From an uncultured Phycisphaerales bacterium (GTDB lineage: Bacteria; Planctomycetota; Phycisphaerae; Phycisphaerales; UBA1924), in assembly GCA_937995595.1 (NCBI GenBank), contig CALKJW010000045.1, positions 1 through 57,493 of the forward strand: DNA of 57,493 bases. The letters are read 5' to 3'. The notes below the pieces were generated by a model, which saw only the letters and a list, made by a program, of their open reading frames with translations, was not told the DNA's origin and ran no database searches. A program made the translations under genes and the position numbers. Shown piece after piece: positions 18,109 through 57,493 of the stretch. Within the stretch, counting starts at the first letter, position 1; each line of letters opens with the position of its first letter.

Positions 18109-19101
18109 ATGTCCAACGAATCGAGCGTGCACAAGGTGGTGATCATCGGCTCCGGGCCGGCGGGGTGGACGGCCGCCATCTACGCCGCGCGGGCGCGGCT
18201 CGACCCGGTCGTGTACACCGGCGTGCCCAAGCAGGACCCCGGCCCCGTCCTGCCCGGCGGGCAGTTGATGCTCACCACCGAGGTCGAGAACTACCCGGGC
18301 TTTCCGGAGGGGATCGTCGGGCCGGAGATGATGAGCCGCTTCCAGAAGCAGGCCGAGCGCTTCGGCACCAAGGTGCTGATGGAGGATGTCGCGCGGTGCG
18401 AGTTCTCGCGAACGCCCGGGACCCCCCACACGCTGCACACCGCGGAGGGCAAGGTCGTTCGGGCGCACGCCGTCATCATCGCCACCGGCGCGACGGCCAA
18501 CTGGCTCGGCCTGCCCAACGAGATGCGGCTGGCGACGACCGGCGGCGGCGTCTCGGCGTGCGCCGTGTGCGACGGCGCGCTGCCCGCGTTCCGCAACAAG
18601 CCGCTGGGCGTCGTCGGCGGCGGCGACACCGCGATGGAAGAGGCCACCTACCTCACCAAGTTCGCCTCGACGGTGTACATCATCCACCGGCGCGACTCGC
18701 TCCGGGCCAGCAAGATCATGCAGGACCGCTTCCTCTCTCGCCCCAACGCGAAGGTGCTGTGGAACAAGGTCGTGGTTGACGTGCTCGGCGACTCGCACAT
18801 CACCGGCGTGCTGCTCGAGGACACGGTCACCGGGCAGCGCAGCACGCTCGAACTCGGCGGCCTGTTCATCGCCATCGGCCACACGCCCGCGACGAAGTTC
18901 CTCAAGGACTCGGGGCTGGAGTTCGATTCCAGCGGCTACATCGCGCTGCGGCAGCGGAACAGTTACACCAACATCCCCGGCGTCTTCGCCGCGGGCGACG
19001 TCGCCGACGAGCACTACCGCCAGGCCGTCACCGCGGCGGGCATGGGCTGCCAGGCGGCCATCGACGCCGAGCGCTGGCTCGCGGCCAACGGCGTGGGATG
19101 A
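18109..19101 (+). CDS. trxB: thioredoxin-disulfide reductase
   Basis: TrxB passes electrons from NADPH through FAD to thioredoxin. The FAD-binding GSGPAGWTAAIYAARA motif is at about 13-28, and the redox pair Cys151-Ala-Val-Cys154 lies in the expected SACAVCDG context. The NADPH-binding GGGDTAMEEATYL follows near 172, and the C-terminal FAD motif GVFAAGDVADEHYRQA near 288. The length (330) is standard. AAGGGAG lies about 12 bases before the ATG. It follows the secreted unknown by 25 bases, and is convergent with plsC. No thioredoxin gene is in the window. Confidence 0.95.
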   Translation: MSNESSVHKVVIIGSGPAGWTAAIYAARARLDPVVYTGVPKQDPGPVLPGGQLMLTTEVENYPGFPEGIVGPEMMSRFQKQAERFGTKVLMEDVARCEFSRTPGTPHTLHTAEGKVVRAHAVIIATGATANWLGLPNEMRLATTGGGVSACAVCDGALPAFRNKPLGVVGGGDTAMEEATYLTKFASTVYIIHRRDSLRASKIMQDRFLSRPNAKVLWNKVVVDVLGDSHITGVLLEDTVTGQRSTLELGGLFIAIGHTPATKFLKDSGLEFDSSGYIALRQRNSYTNIPGVFAAGDVADEHYRQAVTAAGMGCQAAIDAERWLAANGVG

Positions 19102-19155
19102 AGCCGACCGCCGCTCGCGCCGCCGCGGCGGCCTTGTTCGTCGCGGGACAAGCGC

Positions 19156-19824
19156 TCAGCGTCGCTCGCCCATCTTCTCCGCCAGTTCCGCGCGCAGCCG
19201 CTCCACCTCGTCGCGCAGGCGAGCGAGTCCGCGCTCCGGCCCGAGGGCCTTGAGTTCGTCGTACGGGATCGGCGTGCCCAGCGACACGGCGATGCGGTGG
19301 CCGAAGAGAAACGGCAGGCGGTTGGTCCGCGGCCAGGCGTCGAACGCGCCCTCGATCGCCGCGGGGAGCACGTCGACCCTGGCGCGCGACAGCAGCACCC
19401 ACGCGCCGCGCTTGAACTCCTTGATGCTGCCGTCGGGCGTGCGCGTGCCCTCGGGAAAGATCAGCATCATCCGGCCCTTCCTGAGTTCGGCGATGGCCGC
19501 GCGGATCGCCCCCGCGTCGCCCTCGTCCTCCCTGATGGGGATGCAGCCCAGCCCGCGGATGATCTGCGCCAGCACCGGAACGCGGAACAAGCCCTCGCGC
19601 CCGATGCTCGCCATGTTCCGCGTGCGGAACGACACGCCGACGATCGGCGGGTCCCAGTGGGACTGGTGGTTGCACACCACCAGCAGCCCGCCGCGGGGCG
19701 GCAGGTTCCCCGCCCCGAAGATCCGGAGCCGGTACAGCAGCGTGACCAGCACCATCACGACCCAGTAGCAGAACCTGTAGAAGAGGATCTGCCAGAGGGG
19801 CTGTGTGGGGTCGAGCGAGCGCAT
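19156..19824 (-). CDS. plsC: 1-acyl-sn-glycerol-3-phosphate acyltransferase
   Basis: PlsC makes phosphatidic acid by acylating lysophosphatidic acid at the inner membrane. The catalytic NHxxxxD motif reads NHQSHWDPP with His53 and Asp58. The substrate motif FPEGTRTPDG has its EGTR at 125-128. A membrane span lies at about 15-33, and PIPYDEL near 180 matches the block that follows in the family. The length (222) is normal. The start codon directly follows ATCCCAC heptamers on the sense strand, with no Shine-Dalgarno site. Upstream on the same strand is cmk. From memory the two genes are adjacent in several phyla, so the DUF559 element between them looks inserted. Confidence 0.92.
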   Translation of the reverse strand: MRSLDPTQPLWQILFYRFCYWVVMVLVTLLYRLRIFGAGNLPPRGGLLVVCNHQSHWDPPIVGVSFRTRNMASIGREGLFRVPVLAQIIRGLGCIPIREDEGDAGAIRAAIAELRKGRMMLIFPEGTRTPDGSIKEFKRGAWVLLSRARVDVLPAAIEGAFDAWPRTNRLPFLFGHRIAVSLGTPIPYDELKALGPERGLARLRDEVERLRAELAEKMGERR

Positions 19825-19856
19825 GTGGGATGTGGGATGTGCTCGGACCTGTCTCG

Positions 19857-19920
19857 GAGCACCCTCTCCCCGCTCCGGCGGGGAGAGGTGGCGAGGCCGT
19901 CAGGCCGAGCCGGTGAGGGG
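19857..19920 (+). repeat. two-hairpin repeat, class A (left arm of DUF559 element)
   Basis: Hairpin 1 is CCCTCTCCCCG / CGGGGAGAGG with a CTCCGG loop. The tail TGGCGAGGCCG..GGCCGAGCCGGTGAGGGG is class A. One extra T relative to other class A copies creates the TGA stop of the DUF559 gene. Confidence 0.85.
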
Positions 19921-20322
19921 CTTCCTCTCCTTCTCCATCTTCAACGTCTCGATCCTGGCAAGGGCCGCGTCAGCGATCCGGTGAAGCACCCAGTTCCCAT
20001 CGCTGTCCACGGCCGAACACCGGATCCGGATCGTGGCGATCCCCAGCGAGCGCATGTACGCGTCGCACCGCTTGTCCTCCGCGACGCGGCCGGCATGCCA
20101 CGAACTGCCCAGTTCGACGACCAATCTCGCCGCCGCGCAGTAGAAGTCGGTCGTGTACGGTCCGATCGGGTGCTGCCGTCGGAACTTCAGGCCATCGAGT
20201 TTCCGATCCTTGATCATGTTCCAGAGTTTGCGCTCGGGCATGGACATGCGCCTTCGCAGTTCTCTCGCCCTGTCGCGGCCCGGCGACTCAGCGCAATCCC
20301 GGCTGTCGGGCGAGTGTCGCAT
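19900..20322 (-). CDS. DUF559 domain protein (predicted PD-(D/E)XK-type endonuclease)
   Basis: DUF559 proteins resemble the very-short-patch-repair and restriction nuclease fold; their cellular role is not established. Core blocks are PERKLWNMIKDRKLDGLKFRR (about 29-49 in part), HPIGPYTTDFYC and LVVELGSSWHAG. The family usually has ELDGxxH in the last block; here the Asp is replaced by Gly, so activity is doubtful. A second usual motif, RFxNxxV, reads RIRCSAVDSD. The last six residues and the stop codon lie inside the class A repeat, so repeat and gene are physically fused. GC is lower than in neighbours (a line at 20101 is near 60%). It is on the same strand as cmk and plsC. Confidence 0.8.
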   Translation of the reverse strand: MRHSPDSRDCAESPGRDRARELRRRMSMPERKLWNMIKDRKLDGLKFRRQHPIGPYTTDFYCAAARLVVELGSSWHAGRVAEDKRCDAYMRSLGIATIRIRCSAVDSDGNWVLHRIADAALARIETLKMEKERKPLTGSA

Positions 20323-20339
20323 GTCCCGAGTCTACCAAT

Positions 20340-20402
20340 GGCCCCTCACCGGTCGCTGCGCGACCACCTCTCCCCGTTCAGAGCAACGGGGAGAGGGTGC
20401 TC
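20340..20402 (-). repeat. two-hairpin repeat, class C (right arm of DUF559 element)
   Basis: On the minus strand: CCCTCTCCCCG, loop TTGCTCTGAA, CGGGGAGAGG, TG, hairpin GTCGC-GCA-GCGAC, then CGGTGAGGGG. The orientation is opposite to the unit at 19857. Confidence 0.85.
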
Positions 20403-20432
20403 CAGAAACTCCGAACCACCCTCCCACATCCT

Positions 20433-21272
20433 CTACCCCGCCCTGGCCCGCACTCTCCGCTCCAGTTCGTCGACGACCTGTTCCAGCGTCATGTCCGAGG
20501 TGTCGATCCGCACCGCGTCCTCCGGGCAGATCAGCGGGCCGTCGCGCCGGGTCGAGTCCGACAGGTCGCGCGCCACGATCTCCTGGAGCAGGGCGCGGAA
20601 CTCGTCGGGCCCGCCCCTGATTGTACCCTGTGCTACAAGTTGTTCGTACCGCCGTCTGGCCCGCTCCTCCGCCGACGCGTCGAGGTAGAACTTCACGTCC
20701 GCGTCCGGGAAGACCACGCTTCCCTGGTCGCGTCCCTCGGTCACCAGGCGCGGGTGCGCCCGCGCGATCGCCCGCTGCTTGCGCACCATGTCGCGCCGCA
20801 GGCCGGGGATCGCCGCGACCGGCGAGACGATCCGCGTGACGTCCGGTTCGCGGATCCGTTTCATCATCGACCGGCCGCCGCAGATCAGTTCCGGCGGGTC
20901 GGCGTCCCAGTCAAAGTGCATGTCCTGCGAGGCCACCGCCGCGACGATCTGGTCCGGCGAGCCGAGGCTGATGCCGGCGTCGATCGCCACCGCCGCCGCG
21001 GCCCGGTACATCGCGCCCGTGTCGAGAAACTCCACCCCCAGTCGCCTGGCCAGCAGCCGCGCCACCGTGCTCTTGCCCGTCCCCGCCGGGCCGTCGATGG
21101 TGACGATCAGCCCCGCGTCCTTTCCCTTCGCGGCACCCGCTGTCGGACGCTTGGGCATGGCCTGGACCTCGACGATGTTCGCACCCATCGATTGCAGCAG
21201 CGTGCGGCCGGCGGTGGTCGCGGCCCCGGCGGGGGGGGCGGCGGGGGGGGCGGTGGGGGCGGGCTCGGTCAT
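20433..21272 (-). CDS. cmk: cytidylate kinase
   Basis: Cmk phosphorylates CMP and dCMP. The P-loop GPAGTGKST is at 61-69, followed by the substrate segment FLDTGAMYRAAA and the late motif VTEGRDQGSVVFPDA. The C-terminal lid region ARRRYEQL and RDLSDSTR are also family-typical. The N-terminal extension of about 55 residues is rich in Pro, Ala and Thr; Cmk usually begins only a few residues before the P-loop. The extension is encoded partly by G8 runs on the plus strand. Met29 or Met39 could be the true start, but ATG 21272 overlaps the upstream stop by 4 bp, which favours it. The upstream gene is the TIM-barrel protein; the downstream one is the DUF559 gene. Confidence 0.92.
   Translation of the reverse strand: MTEPAPTAPPAAPPAGAATTAGRTLLQSMGANIVEVQAMPKRPTAGAAKGKDAGLIVTIDGPAGTGKSTVARLLARRLGVEFLDTGAMYRAAAAVAIDAGISLGSPDQIVAAVASQDMHFDWDADPPELICGGRSMMKRIREPDVTRIVSPVAAIPGLRRDMVRKQRAIARAHPRLVTEGRDQGSVVFPDADVKFYLDASAEERARRRYEQLVAQGTIRGGPDEFRALLQEIVARDLSDSTRRDGPLICPEDAVRIDTSDMTLEQVVDELERRVRARAG
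21231..21263 (+). repeat. clustered G-runs (G8, G8, G5, G3)
   Basis: Four G-runs of 8, 8, 5 and 3 bases lie within 33 bp on the strand opposite to the cmk start. They could form a G-quadruplex on that strand. Because they fall in codons 4-14 of cmk, a one-base slip in either G8 run would shift the frame if ATG 21272 is the real start. Confidence 0.6.
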
Positions 21273-22141
21273 TCGTCCGTCACCTCCTCCACGTTCTCGG
21301 CGCTCTGCACGCCGGCGACCGTTTCCAGCGCGGCCCGCGCAAGGCGGAGCGCGGCGTCGGCGTCTCCGCCCCCACGATAGTCCAGCGCCAGCGTCCCGGT
21401 GTAGCCGACGCTCAGCACCGTCTTGGCGTACTCCGCGAGGTCGTACGGCTCGTGGTCCATGCCCTTCCTGGACTTCTTAAAGTTCATCACCGCCGCCGTC
21501 ACCGCCGCGGCGTAGGGCGTCAGGCGCCGCAGGTACATCAGCGGGTCGTCCGACTTTGACGCGGTCTCGAAGTCGGGGAACGTGCCGATGCGGAACCCGC
21601 CGACGCGCTTGATCAGGTCCGTCAGCGCCTCGGGGTTGCTCGTCGGCCCCGGCGAGACGTCGCCCGGCGCGCCCCCGCTGCCGATCAGCAGGTTCACCTC
21701 GCGCTTCTCGGCGACCGACATTACCTTCCGCAGGCGCTCGGCCGCTAGGTCCGCGGTGTCGGACCCCTGCTCGAACCCCTCGGCGGCGATGAACATGGCC
21801 GCCGAGTTGCAGCCCAGCCGGTGCGCCGCCTGCACCACGCGGCTCATGCGCTCGACGGCGGCGTCGCCGCGGGCGTCGTCGTCGGTGAAGAACGGCAGCG
21901 CGTCGGGCTTGACCAGCACCAGACACGGGCACGAGGCCTTGTCCGCCGCTTCCCGCAGCGCGTCGAGTTGCGGCACGTCCGCCCCGGCCAGCAGGTCGGT
22001 CGAGACGTTCAGGCCGTACAGGCCCAGCGTGTCGCGCGCGTGCCGCGGCAGGTCGGTCAGCCGCATCTGCCCGGCAGGGGCGCGCCCGGGCCCGAGGTGG
22101 AGCCGGGCGCGCATCGAAGTGGCGGCGAGCGTCAGCAGCAT
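21269..22141 (-). CDS. TIM-barrel sugar phosphate isomerase/epimerase-like protein
   Basis: Segments LYGLNVSTDLLAGA, PCLVLVKPD, LLIGSGGAPGDVSPGPTSNPEAL and GYTGTLALDYRGGGD fit the xylose-isomerase-like (AP_endonuc_2) TIM-barrel family. The last two match the phosphate- or metal-binding ends of barrel strands, but metal ligands are not fully conserved, so the substrate is unknown. I chose ATG 22141, which gives MLLTLAATSM and the first barrel strand. An upstream ATG at 22192 adds 17 residues of no clear structure. Its stop overlaps the cmk start by 4 bp, so the two are translationally coupled. It diverges from gcvH. Confidence 0.65.
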   Translation of the reverse strand: MLLTLAATSMRARLHLGPGRAPAGQMRLTDLPRHARDTLGLYGLNVSTDLLAGADVPQLDALREAADKASCPCLVLVKPDALPFFTDDDARGDAAVERMSRVVQAAHRLGCNSAAMFIAAEGFEQGSDTADLAAERLRKVMSVAEKREVNLLIGSGGAPGDVSPGPTSNPEALTDLIKRVGGFRIGTFPDFETASKSDDPLMYLRRLTPYAAAVTAAVMNFKKSRKGMDHEPYDLAEYAKTVLSVGYTGTLALDYRGGGDADAALRLARAALETVAGVQSAENVEEVTDE

Positions 22142-48967: not shown

Positions 48968-49000
48968 GCTGCCTCTCCCCGCGGCGCGGGGAGAGGGGAA
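48968..49000. repeat. half unit of the two-hairpin repeat
   Basis: CCTCTCCCC, GCGGCGC loop, GGGGAGAGG, ending GGGAA; the second hairpin is missing. Confidence 0.8.
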
Positions 49001-49024
49001 GGCGTGTTGCGTTTTGATCTGCGC

Positions 49025-49084
49025 TTTCCCCTCTCCCCATCGAAGATGGGGAGAGGTGCCCGAGCGCAGCGAGGGGGTGAGGGG
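49025..49084 (+). repeat. two-hairpin repeat, class B
   Basis: CCCCTCTCCCC with ATCGAAGAT loop, GGGGAGAGG, TG, CCCGAGCGCAGCGAGGG, GTGAGGGG. It lies between psd and the GNAT gene. Confidence 0.85.
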
Positions 49085-54280: not shown

Positions 54281-54396
54281 GTCGTGGGCACCGACCGCGG
54301 GGCGCGTCGGTCGGTGGCACGGGGAAGGCGCTGGTTCTTCCCCTCTCCCCATCGCAGATGGGGAGAGGTGCCCGAGCGGAGCGAGGGCGGTGAGGG
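54281..54396 (+). repeat. long repeat with class B unit, inverted match to 57103-57220
   Basis: It runs GGGCACCGACCGCG..CGTCGGTCGGTGGCAC.. into a full class B two-hairpin unit (54338-54396). The reverse complement of 57103-57220 matches it with fewer than ten differences by eye. The pair brackets the CTERM and lipoprotein genes. Confidence 0.85.
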
Positions 54397-54412
54397 GCGG
54401 GCAGGCAAAGGC

Positions 54413-54472
54413 GCCCCTCACCGGCTCGGCCTGCGGCCTCGCCACCTCTCCCCGCGGGGCGGGGAGAGGGGA
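54413..54472 (-). repeat. two-hairpin repeat, class A
   Basis: On the minus strand: CCCCTCTCCCC, GCCCCGC loop, GGGGAGAGGTGG, class A tail, GGTGAGGGG. Orientation is opposite to the unit at 54338. Confidence 0.85.
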
Positions 54473-56970: not shown

Positions 56971-57493
56971 ACTTCCCCTCTCCCCGCGCCAGCGGGGAGA
57001 GGGGACTGTGGCAAGCATCAAAGGAACTTCCCCTCTCCCCGCGCCAGCGGGGAGAGGTGGCGAGGCCGCAGGCCGAGCCGGTGAGGGGTGCATTGAGAAC
57101 CGCCCCTCACCGCCCTCGCTCACGCTCGGGCACCTCTCCCCATCTGCGATGGGGAGAGGGGAAGAACCCGCGCCTTCCCCGTGCCACCGACCGACGCGGA
57201 GCGCGGTCGGTGCCGATGACGCCTTCCCCTCTCCCCGCGCCAGCGGGGAGAGGGGACTGTGGCAAGCATCAAAAGAACTTCCCCTCTCCCCGCGCCGGCG
57301 GGGAGAGGTGGCGAGGCCGCAGGCCGAGCCGGTGAGGGGTGGTTCTCGATCGACCAAGCGCCCCTCACCTGTCGCTGCGCGACATCCTCTCCCCGTTGAG
57401 AGCAACGGGGAGAGGGGAACCACACCGATCCGCCCCTCACCGCCCTCGCTCACGCTCGGGCACCTCTCCCCATCTGCGATGGGGAGAGGGGAA
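56971..57493. repeat. cluster of two-hairpin repeats at window end
   Basis: In order: half unit (56971-57004), class A + (57027-57089), class B - (57103-57162), half unit (57224-57256), class A + (57279-57338), class C - (57360-57419), class B - (57433-57493, reaching the window end). A 118-bp stretch (56971-57090) recurs as 57223-57341, spaced 252 bp, nearly identical. No gene is seen. Confidence 0.9.

Follow-up and report, generated by a model that had tools for sequence, protein, structure and literature searches.

A DUF559 gene encoding a predicted nuclease lies between inverted BoxC-style repeats in a Phycisphaerales bacterium, and the pairing recurs in other bacterial phyla

It was found that a small gene for a DUF559 (PF04480) protein, a predicted PD-(D/E)XK nuclease, lies between inverted copies of a fold-prone repeat in an uncultured Phycisphaerales bacterium. 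The same pairing recurs in many bacterial phyla, with a relative in E. coli K-12. The repeats are in the style of the BoxC/PIT/'TM' intrastrand-triplex repeats, whose means of spreading was unknown. These results suggest that the DUF559 family helps to spread such repeats, in a RAYT/REPIN-like partnership with an unrelated, homing-endonuclease-like enzyme, although it is inferred rather than observed that DUF559 causes the spread.

The cmk-plsC junction

The window is a stretch of 57,493 nucleotides, a contig (C45) of a 3.11-Mb, 55-contig draft genome. Below, genomes are numbered with G (the own genome is G000), loci with L, and contigs with C. Between an acyltransferase gene, plsC (19156-19824, minus strand), and a cytidylate kinase gene, cmk (20433-21272, minus strand), there is one gene on the same strand (19900-20322, minus strand). 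It encodes 140 amino acids with a nearly full DUF559 domain (E 6e-28; 97.3 bits against a curated cut-off of 20.6). The gene lies between two inner arms inverted to each other, the plsC-side arm (19856-19921, plus) and the cmk-side arm (20341-20403, minus). Each arm reads hairpin CCTCTCCCCG-loop-CGGGGAGAGG, then a second element (GGCC-rich in the plsC-side arm), and then GGTGAGGGG facing the gene. The last codons of the gene read into the plsC-side arm. The hairpin of the cmk-side arm, with its loop, is identical to dispersed copies on contigs C3 and C7. The arms are complementary at 17 of 17 positions (GGAGCACCCTCTCCCCG, 19856-19872 with 20387-20403), 13 of 13 (19879-19891 with 20364-20376), and 12 of 12 (19910-19921 with 20341-20352). 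The local-alignment score of the upstream flank against the reverse-complemented downstream flank is 60, against at most 22 in nine intervals of the same geometry in the same locus. Both arms fold better than shuffled sequences (z -2.97 and -4.05), while the second hairpin is clear only in the cmk-side arm. Thus, the arrangement described in the original prediction, a DUF559 gene inside inverted two-hairpin repeats between cmk and plsC, is real, and the arms are where it placed them. However, it missed further copies of the inner repeat in the window, at about 49.0 kb, 54.3-54.5 kb, and 57.0-57.5 kb. An Rfam search of positions 19000-21300 gave no match at the gathering score.

The outer GGATGTGGGA arms, which the original prediction counted as part of the unit, are remnants of a different repeat type. 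They consist of TGTGGGATGTGGGATGTG (19825-19842, plus) and its inverted partner TCCCACATCC (20423-20432, minus). In the sister species (G177, the one other genome of the genus given by the searches, with cmk 86% identical by tblastn), the same junction holds a 23S_rRNA_IVP-family gene (PF05635; L174, 2311-2883) between inverted tandem arrays of GGGATGTG-like octamers. This looks like another repeat-bounded small-gene unit. The cmk gene was found in 60 of 61 relatives, and the 30 loci kept were read. Own and sister genomes apart, 22 have plsC directly downstream at about -7 to 186 bp (20 of them at most 92 bp), which leaves no room for a gene, and in six no plsC was found in the locus. Therefore, the junction has received inserts in this genus, and the DUF559 unit lies within the remains of an IVP-type one.

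Repeats elsewhere in the same genome

A search with a pattern of the hairpin gave 36 places in the genome and none for the reversed control. A PF04480 profile search gave two genes, both between such repeats. At the second gene, the two nearest units are in direct, not inverted, orientation, but further units make inverted pairs (inverted score 48). In 14 stretches fetched from the genome plus the window, a fuzzy pattern found 65 units, a few of which overlap. Twenty-three neighboring pairs are tag-inward with spacers of 14, 16, 20, or 21 bp, and the spacers fall into a few sequence types, whereas the 12 tag-outward pairs have scattered distances. These gene-free inverted dimers are 129-148 bp long and REPIN-like. 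In the window, they lie at 54340-54471 (16-bp spacer), 57030-57161 (14-bp spacer), and 57281-57417 (21-bp spacer). In addition, 48972-49084 contains a hairpin stem (48972-48996) and one whole repeat unit (49023-49084). The DUF559 unit is the same arrangement with a gene for a spacer (421 bp). The two arms in the window are 95% and 93% identical to units of a dispersed array (L025), and the units around the second gene are 80-97% identical. At the site of L025, the sister genome has about 290 bp of other sequence and no such repeat. Repeat arrays lie at the end of the window (56972-57493) and at the ends of contigs C22, C33, C49, and C54, suggesting that these repeats break the assembly.

Recurrence in the order and in other phyla

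PF04480 hits 61 of 151 genomes of the order, although many weak hits are parts of very long frames. I read the flanks of all 51 strong places (E at most 5.6e-19), and 49 have an inverted-repeat score of at least 30. The two others are L210 and L214, the latter being cut by a contig end. Some places also have long direct repeats. In one genome (G022), two DUF559 genes have very long flank repeats, with an inverted score of 327 in L211 and a direct score of 326 in L212.

A scan of genome contigs kept the best 80 of 582 confirmed relatives. Together with 31 loci of the order read first, 105 of 111 loci have full 250-bp flanks. Of these, 79 score at least 30, against 11 of 2764 control intervals of the same geometry in the same loci; at 36 or more, the numbers are 71 and 2. 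By this cut-off, 26 of the 105 loci lack inverted flanks. Among the 75 contig loci with full flanks, inverted flanks were found in 22 of 30 for Pseudomonadota, 13 of 16 for Planctomycetota, 6 of 12 for Chloroflexota, 3 of 6 for Bacteroidota (one, L106, is A-rich and unlike the others), 1 of 3 for Cyanobacteriota, 2 of 2 for Myxococcota, 1 of 1 for Hydrogenedentota, and 1 of 1 for Rhodothermota, hence in eight phyla. None was found in one locus each of Armatimonadota, Nitrospirota, Bipolaricaulota, and Fibrobacterota. A myxococcal DUF559 gene (L111, 2823-3512) lies between very long, nearly perfect inverted repeats (about 119 bp, score 208). A search of phage records gave DUF559 in 2 of 50,697, and a plasmid collection gave 35 of 72,556, several of them chromosome-sized.

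The arm sequences differ among the loci but, by eye, many read hairpin, short stretch or second hairpin, and then a mirror-like copy of the purine stem. In the window, this is GGGGAGAGG with GGTGAGGGG. This grammar was found in either flank of 88 of 105 loci against 33 of 1578 control windows. However, a direct-repeat version also scores 79 of 105, and the comparison of mirror and direct third strands is not decisive, because many purine stems are nearly mirror-symmetric. Flank sequence and protein co-vary only weakly (Mantel 0.19 versus 0.13 for control flanks).

Resemblance to BoxC/PIT repeats

A text search for the arm sequences led to a study of intrastrand-triplex repeats in bacteria (Holder 2015, PMC4666352, which cites the earlier work of Hoyne and Maher). 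It deals with sequences formerly called BoxC or PIT, with 23 copies in E. coli, and also describes inverted pairs. It reports that no activities providing genetic mobility were found near them, and neither 'DUF559' nor 'endonuclease' occurs in its text. The class-A arms fit its consensus, CCCTCNCCCN3-6GGGNGAGGGN3GGGNGAGGG, and 20 of 111 DUF559 loci hold an exact match somewhere in the locus. The arms in the window have the hairpin and the mirror third strand but do not match the consensus exactly, since an extra element makes the second loop longer. In the literature searched, I found no report of a link between DUF559 and such repeats, and no paper held both 'DUF559' and 'inverted repeats'.

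Insertion polymorphism in the HMG-CoA lyase gene

One HMG-CoA lyase with DUF559 inside was searched in 120 genomes of the family, with matches in 115. Of the 30 loci kept, the junction could be read in 28 (the motif missed L147 and L158). Six are full and in frame (567-666 bp), with the arms translated, while a seventh, G101 (L147), is full by the search (554-aa frame). G215 and G159 hold a repeat alone, in frame (162 and 174 bp). G223, G000, and G151 hold what looks like a scar (129, 150, and 132 bp). Of the other 17, 14 have 111-120 bp, and three (L161, L162, and L167) are longer without a visible repeat. Four genera (g1, g13, g33, and, from the match places of the search, g23) have both full and not-full species. 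The tree of the domains does not group all seven copies and the best tree needs four changes, but a single clade is not rejected (AU p 0.088 for all seven copies, 0.123 without one). Thus, independent insertions are not claimed, and one old insertion with losses remains possible. In another locus, L036 (contig C198 of G145), DUF559 with palindromic arms is inserted in frame in an Eco57I-type restriction-modification methylase.

DUF559 and repeat load

A mismatch-tolerant class-A pattern matched its reversed control equally, and an exact pattern with 0 control hits in 151 genomes was used instead. The exact pattern does not fit the repeat class of the own genome (0 matches in G000), which was left out of the count. 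In the 150 relatives, four or more copies occur in 23 of 38 genomes with DUF559 (E at most 1e-10) and in 11 of 112 without (Fisher 1.5e-9). Families f1, f5, and f6 each give p below 0.05, while f2 and f4, with 1 and 2 DUF559-positive genomes, show no association. Fifteen of the 38 DUF559-positive genomes have fewer than four copies, and seven DUF559-negative genomes have 10 or more (one, G148, is only 71% complete). Y1_Tnp is present in 107 of 151 genomes. Taken alone, it is weakly linked to repeat number (29 of 106 with, 5 of 44 without; p 0.034), but it is not significant within the DUF559-positive or DUF559-negative sets. In contrast, the effect of DUF559 persists among Y1_Tnp-free genomes (4 of 6 versus 1 of 38). 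Since related genomes are not independent, these p values are generous.

With a wider pattern in 14 genomes picked by their HMG-CoA lyase allele, eight with DUF559 gave 15-88 matches (own 61, sister 41) and six without gave 0-2, absence being judged by the HMG-CoA lyase search; three genera hold both states. These matches include overlapping ones (the 18 of G059 are 11 places), and reversed-control matches are 15 in G022, 7 in G143, and 0-2 elsewhere. The one DUF559 of the sister G177 is that in HMG-CoA lyase, and its arms are of another class than most of the repeats seen in that genome.

The predicted enzyme

The invariant residues of the family are those expected of a PD-(D/E)XK nuclease, and PMC1189080 lists YcjD among PD-(D/E)XK members. 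In the window copy, E30, D59, E70, H76, and D83 are present, but the nearly invariant Asp (D72) of the ExD motif, within VE(L/V)DG, is Gly. This copy may be impaired, while the second own copy is intact there. A sequence profile search found 3hrl, a DUF559 protein (1.7e-32), and 3r3p, a mobile intron protein (3.5e-4). The AF2 model (pLDDT 88.5) matched 3hrl (Foldseek 1.5e-7) and 3r3p, the homing endonuclease I-Bth0305I (9.8e-5), and matched Vsr (1cw0/1vsr) only weakly (0.06-0.07). In L104 (1-3306) and L135 (1210-5010), DUF559 lies beside Intein_splicing hits, below the curated cut-off of that family, within N4/N6 DNA methylase frames, indicating a possible DUF559-type intein homing nuclease. 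In L136, it lies in a methylase frame without such a hit. PADLOC gave nothing for the window protein and one marginal DpdF hit (E 0.0091) for the second own copy.

A proposed REPIN-like unit with a gene as its spacer

The explanation I favor, with moderate confidence, is that the unit is the gene-bearing form of a REPIN-like mobile repeat, namely two inverted BoxC/PIT-style repeats (hairpin plus mirror third strand) with a DUF559 gene as their spacer, and that the gene-free dimers with 14-21-bp spacers are its miniature forms. Most likely, the nuclease would recognize the folded repeat (a hairpin or intrastrand triplex in single-stranded or supercoiled DNA) and cut at or near it. Repair of the break would copy repeat dimers, and rarely the gene-bearing one, to new sites. 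It would thus do for BoxC-style repeats what RAYT is thought to do for REP, with an unrelated enzyme. The analysis itself establishes the architecture, its recurrence, the insertion polymorphism, and the co-occurrence with repeat load, whereas recognition of the repeat, triplex formation, cutting, copying, and any DUF559-dependent transposition are inferred. The weak points are the repeat-rich genomes without DUF559, the sister genome, and the divergence of DUF559 copies within a genome, which are only 41-64% identical, so that the gene itself does not multiply often.

The interpretation given in the original prediction, an inserted unit and possibly a nuclease that spreads its own repeats as RAYT proteins do, is partly supported. 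The insertion, the recurrence of DUF559-plus-repeat units, and the link with repeat number are borne out, while movement of the repeats by the nuclease is not shown. The two findings named beforehand as fatal to it, the same arrangement in all relatives and DUF559 genes elsewhere without the repeats, were looked for at the cmk-plsC junction and at the other DUF559 loci, and the outcome did not refute it. DUF559 is still named a family of unknown function in Pfam. Joining the family with the repeat gives a candidate enzyme for an old repeat, a candidate role for a little-studied nuclease family, and an E. coli K-12 gene on which to test it. It would show that RAYT is not the only way by which bacteria came to carry REP-like repeats. 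A broader reading is not excluded but remains tentative: DUF559 nucleases may be the dispersal enzymes of BoxC/PIT-style triplex repeats throughout bacteria, a transposase-free class of mobile repeat that works by structure-specific cutting and repair, inserts in frame into protein genes, and is present in E. coli K-12 as ycjD.

Of the alternatives, the one that survives best, although doubtful, is homing only. In this view, DUF559 is a homing nuclease that cuts repeat dimers or their empty sites and is copied into them by break repair, while the repeats are its target and are spread by something else. The resemblance to I-Bth0305I (the nearest solved structure besides 3hrl), the neighboring Intein_splicing hits, the full, scar-like, and empty states of the same host-gene site, and the divergence of the gene copies agree with this, but it does not by itself explain why genomes with DUF559 have more repeats. 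It is unlikely that the palindromes are merely expression insulators (terminators or attenuators) kept around an immobile defense or repair gene such as the Vsr-like VsrA of Caulobacter. In Caulobacter, the SOS response of cells lacking a cytosine methyltransferase depends on VsrA, a DUF559 protein (PMC12907096), and the gene ends inside the repeat in the window and, by my reading of the sequence, in an E. coli strain. However, the same repeats occur in many gene-free copies and in frame inside HMG-CoA lyase, and PIT elements are reported to lack promoter or terminator activity (PMC4666352). It is also unlikely that Y1/RAYT transposases move the repeats with DUF559 genes as passengers. The own genome has two Y1_Tnp genes, but none of these repeats was found within about 1.5 kb of either, and Y1_Tnp has no significant effect once DUF559 is held constant. 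Least likely, repeats that occur in clusters, several at contig ends, recombine and trap whatever lies between them, DUF559 being over-represented only because it is small and common, since the inverted-flank rate is about 190 times that of other intervals slid along the same loci (75% versus 0.4%), a control that does not cover other small gene families.

Comparison with known systems

In RAYT/REPtron, TIRtron, and REPIN systems (PMC3733652, PMC2817692, PMC3116915), a small nuclease-type gene also lies between repeats, gene-free inverted dimers are dispersed in the genome, and palindromic repeats are reported inside protein genes. In the unit described here, the enzyme is a PD-(D/E)XK DUF559 protein and not a tyrosine (HUH) transposase, and the repeats were not assigned to the GTAG or CGTC families. 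I-Bth0305I, of the EDxHD, Vsr-like family, is intron-encoded and is not known to have palindromic repeat arms. Rickettsia palindromic elements are inserted inside protein genes, as in HMG-CoA lyase here, but they are unrelated in sequence and are not known to carry a nuclease gene. Rickettsial REPs also appear in PMC3733652.

The E. coli gene ycjD is annotated as a DUF559 gene. A near match to the ycjD stretch was found in 3365 of 5426 complete genomes, and K-12 has the gene. In strain KE47, an exact BoxC motif lies just behind ycjD with its tag towards the gene, and another lies about 170 bp further. In K-12, the near one is degenerate, and one exact motif remains between ycjD and fabI. No exact motif lies upstream in either stretch. 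Strains without ycjD are not simple empty sites, since the one read carries an efflux operon there, as PMC12817139 describes. E. coli chromosomes without ycjD can keep a BoxC motif; one (H97) matched only that stretch of the query, and other ycjD-free chromosomes have 2-6 matching places. The Neisseria homologue has similar repeats on both sides, by eye, but no exact motif. VsrA of Caulobacter, another DUF559 protein, was proposed as a mismatch-repair enzyme (PMC12907096). Around the start of ycjD in K-12 (L206, 1970-2012), there is also a long palindrome, CACCTCATTCTGACAA...TTGTCAGAATGAGGTG, which is unrelated to BoxC.
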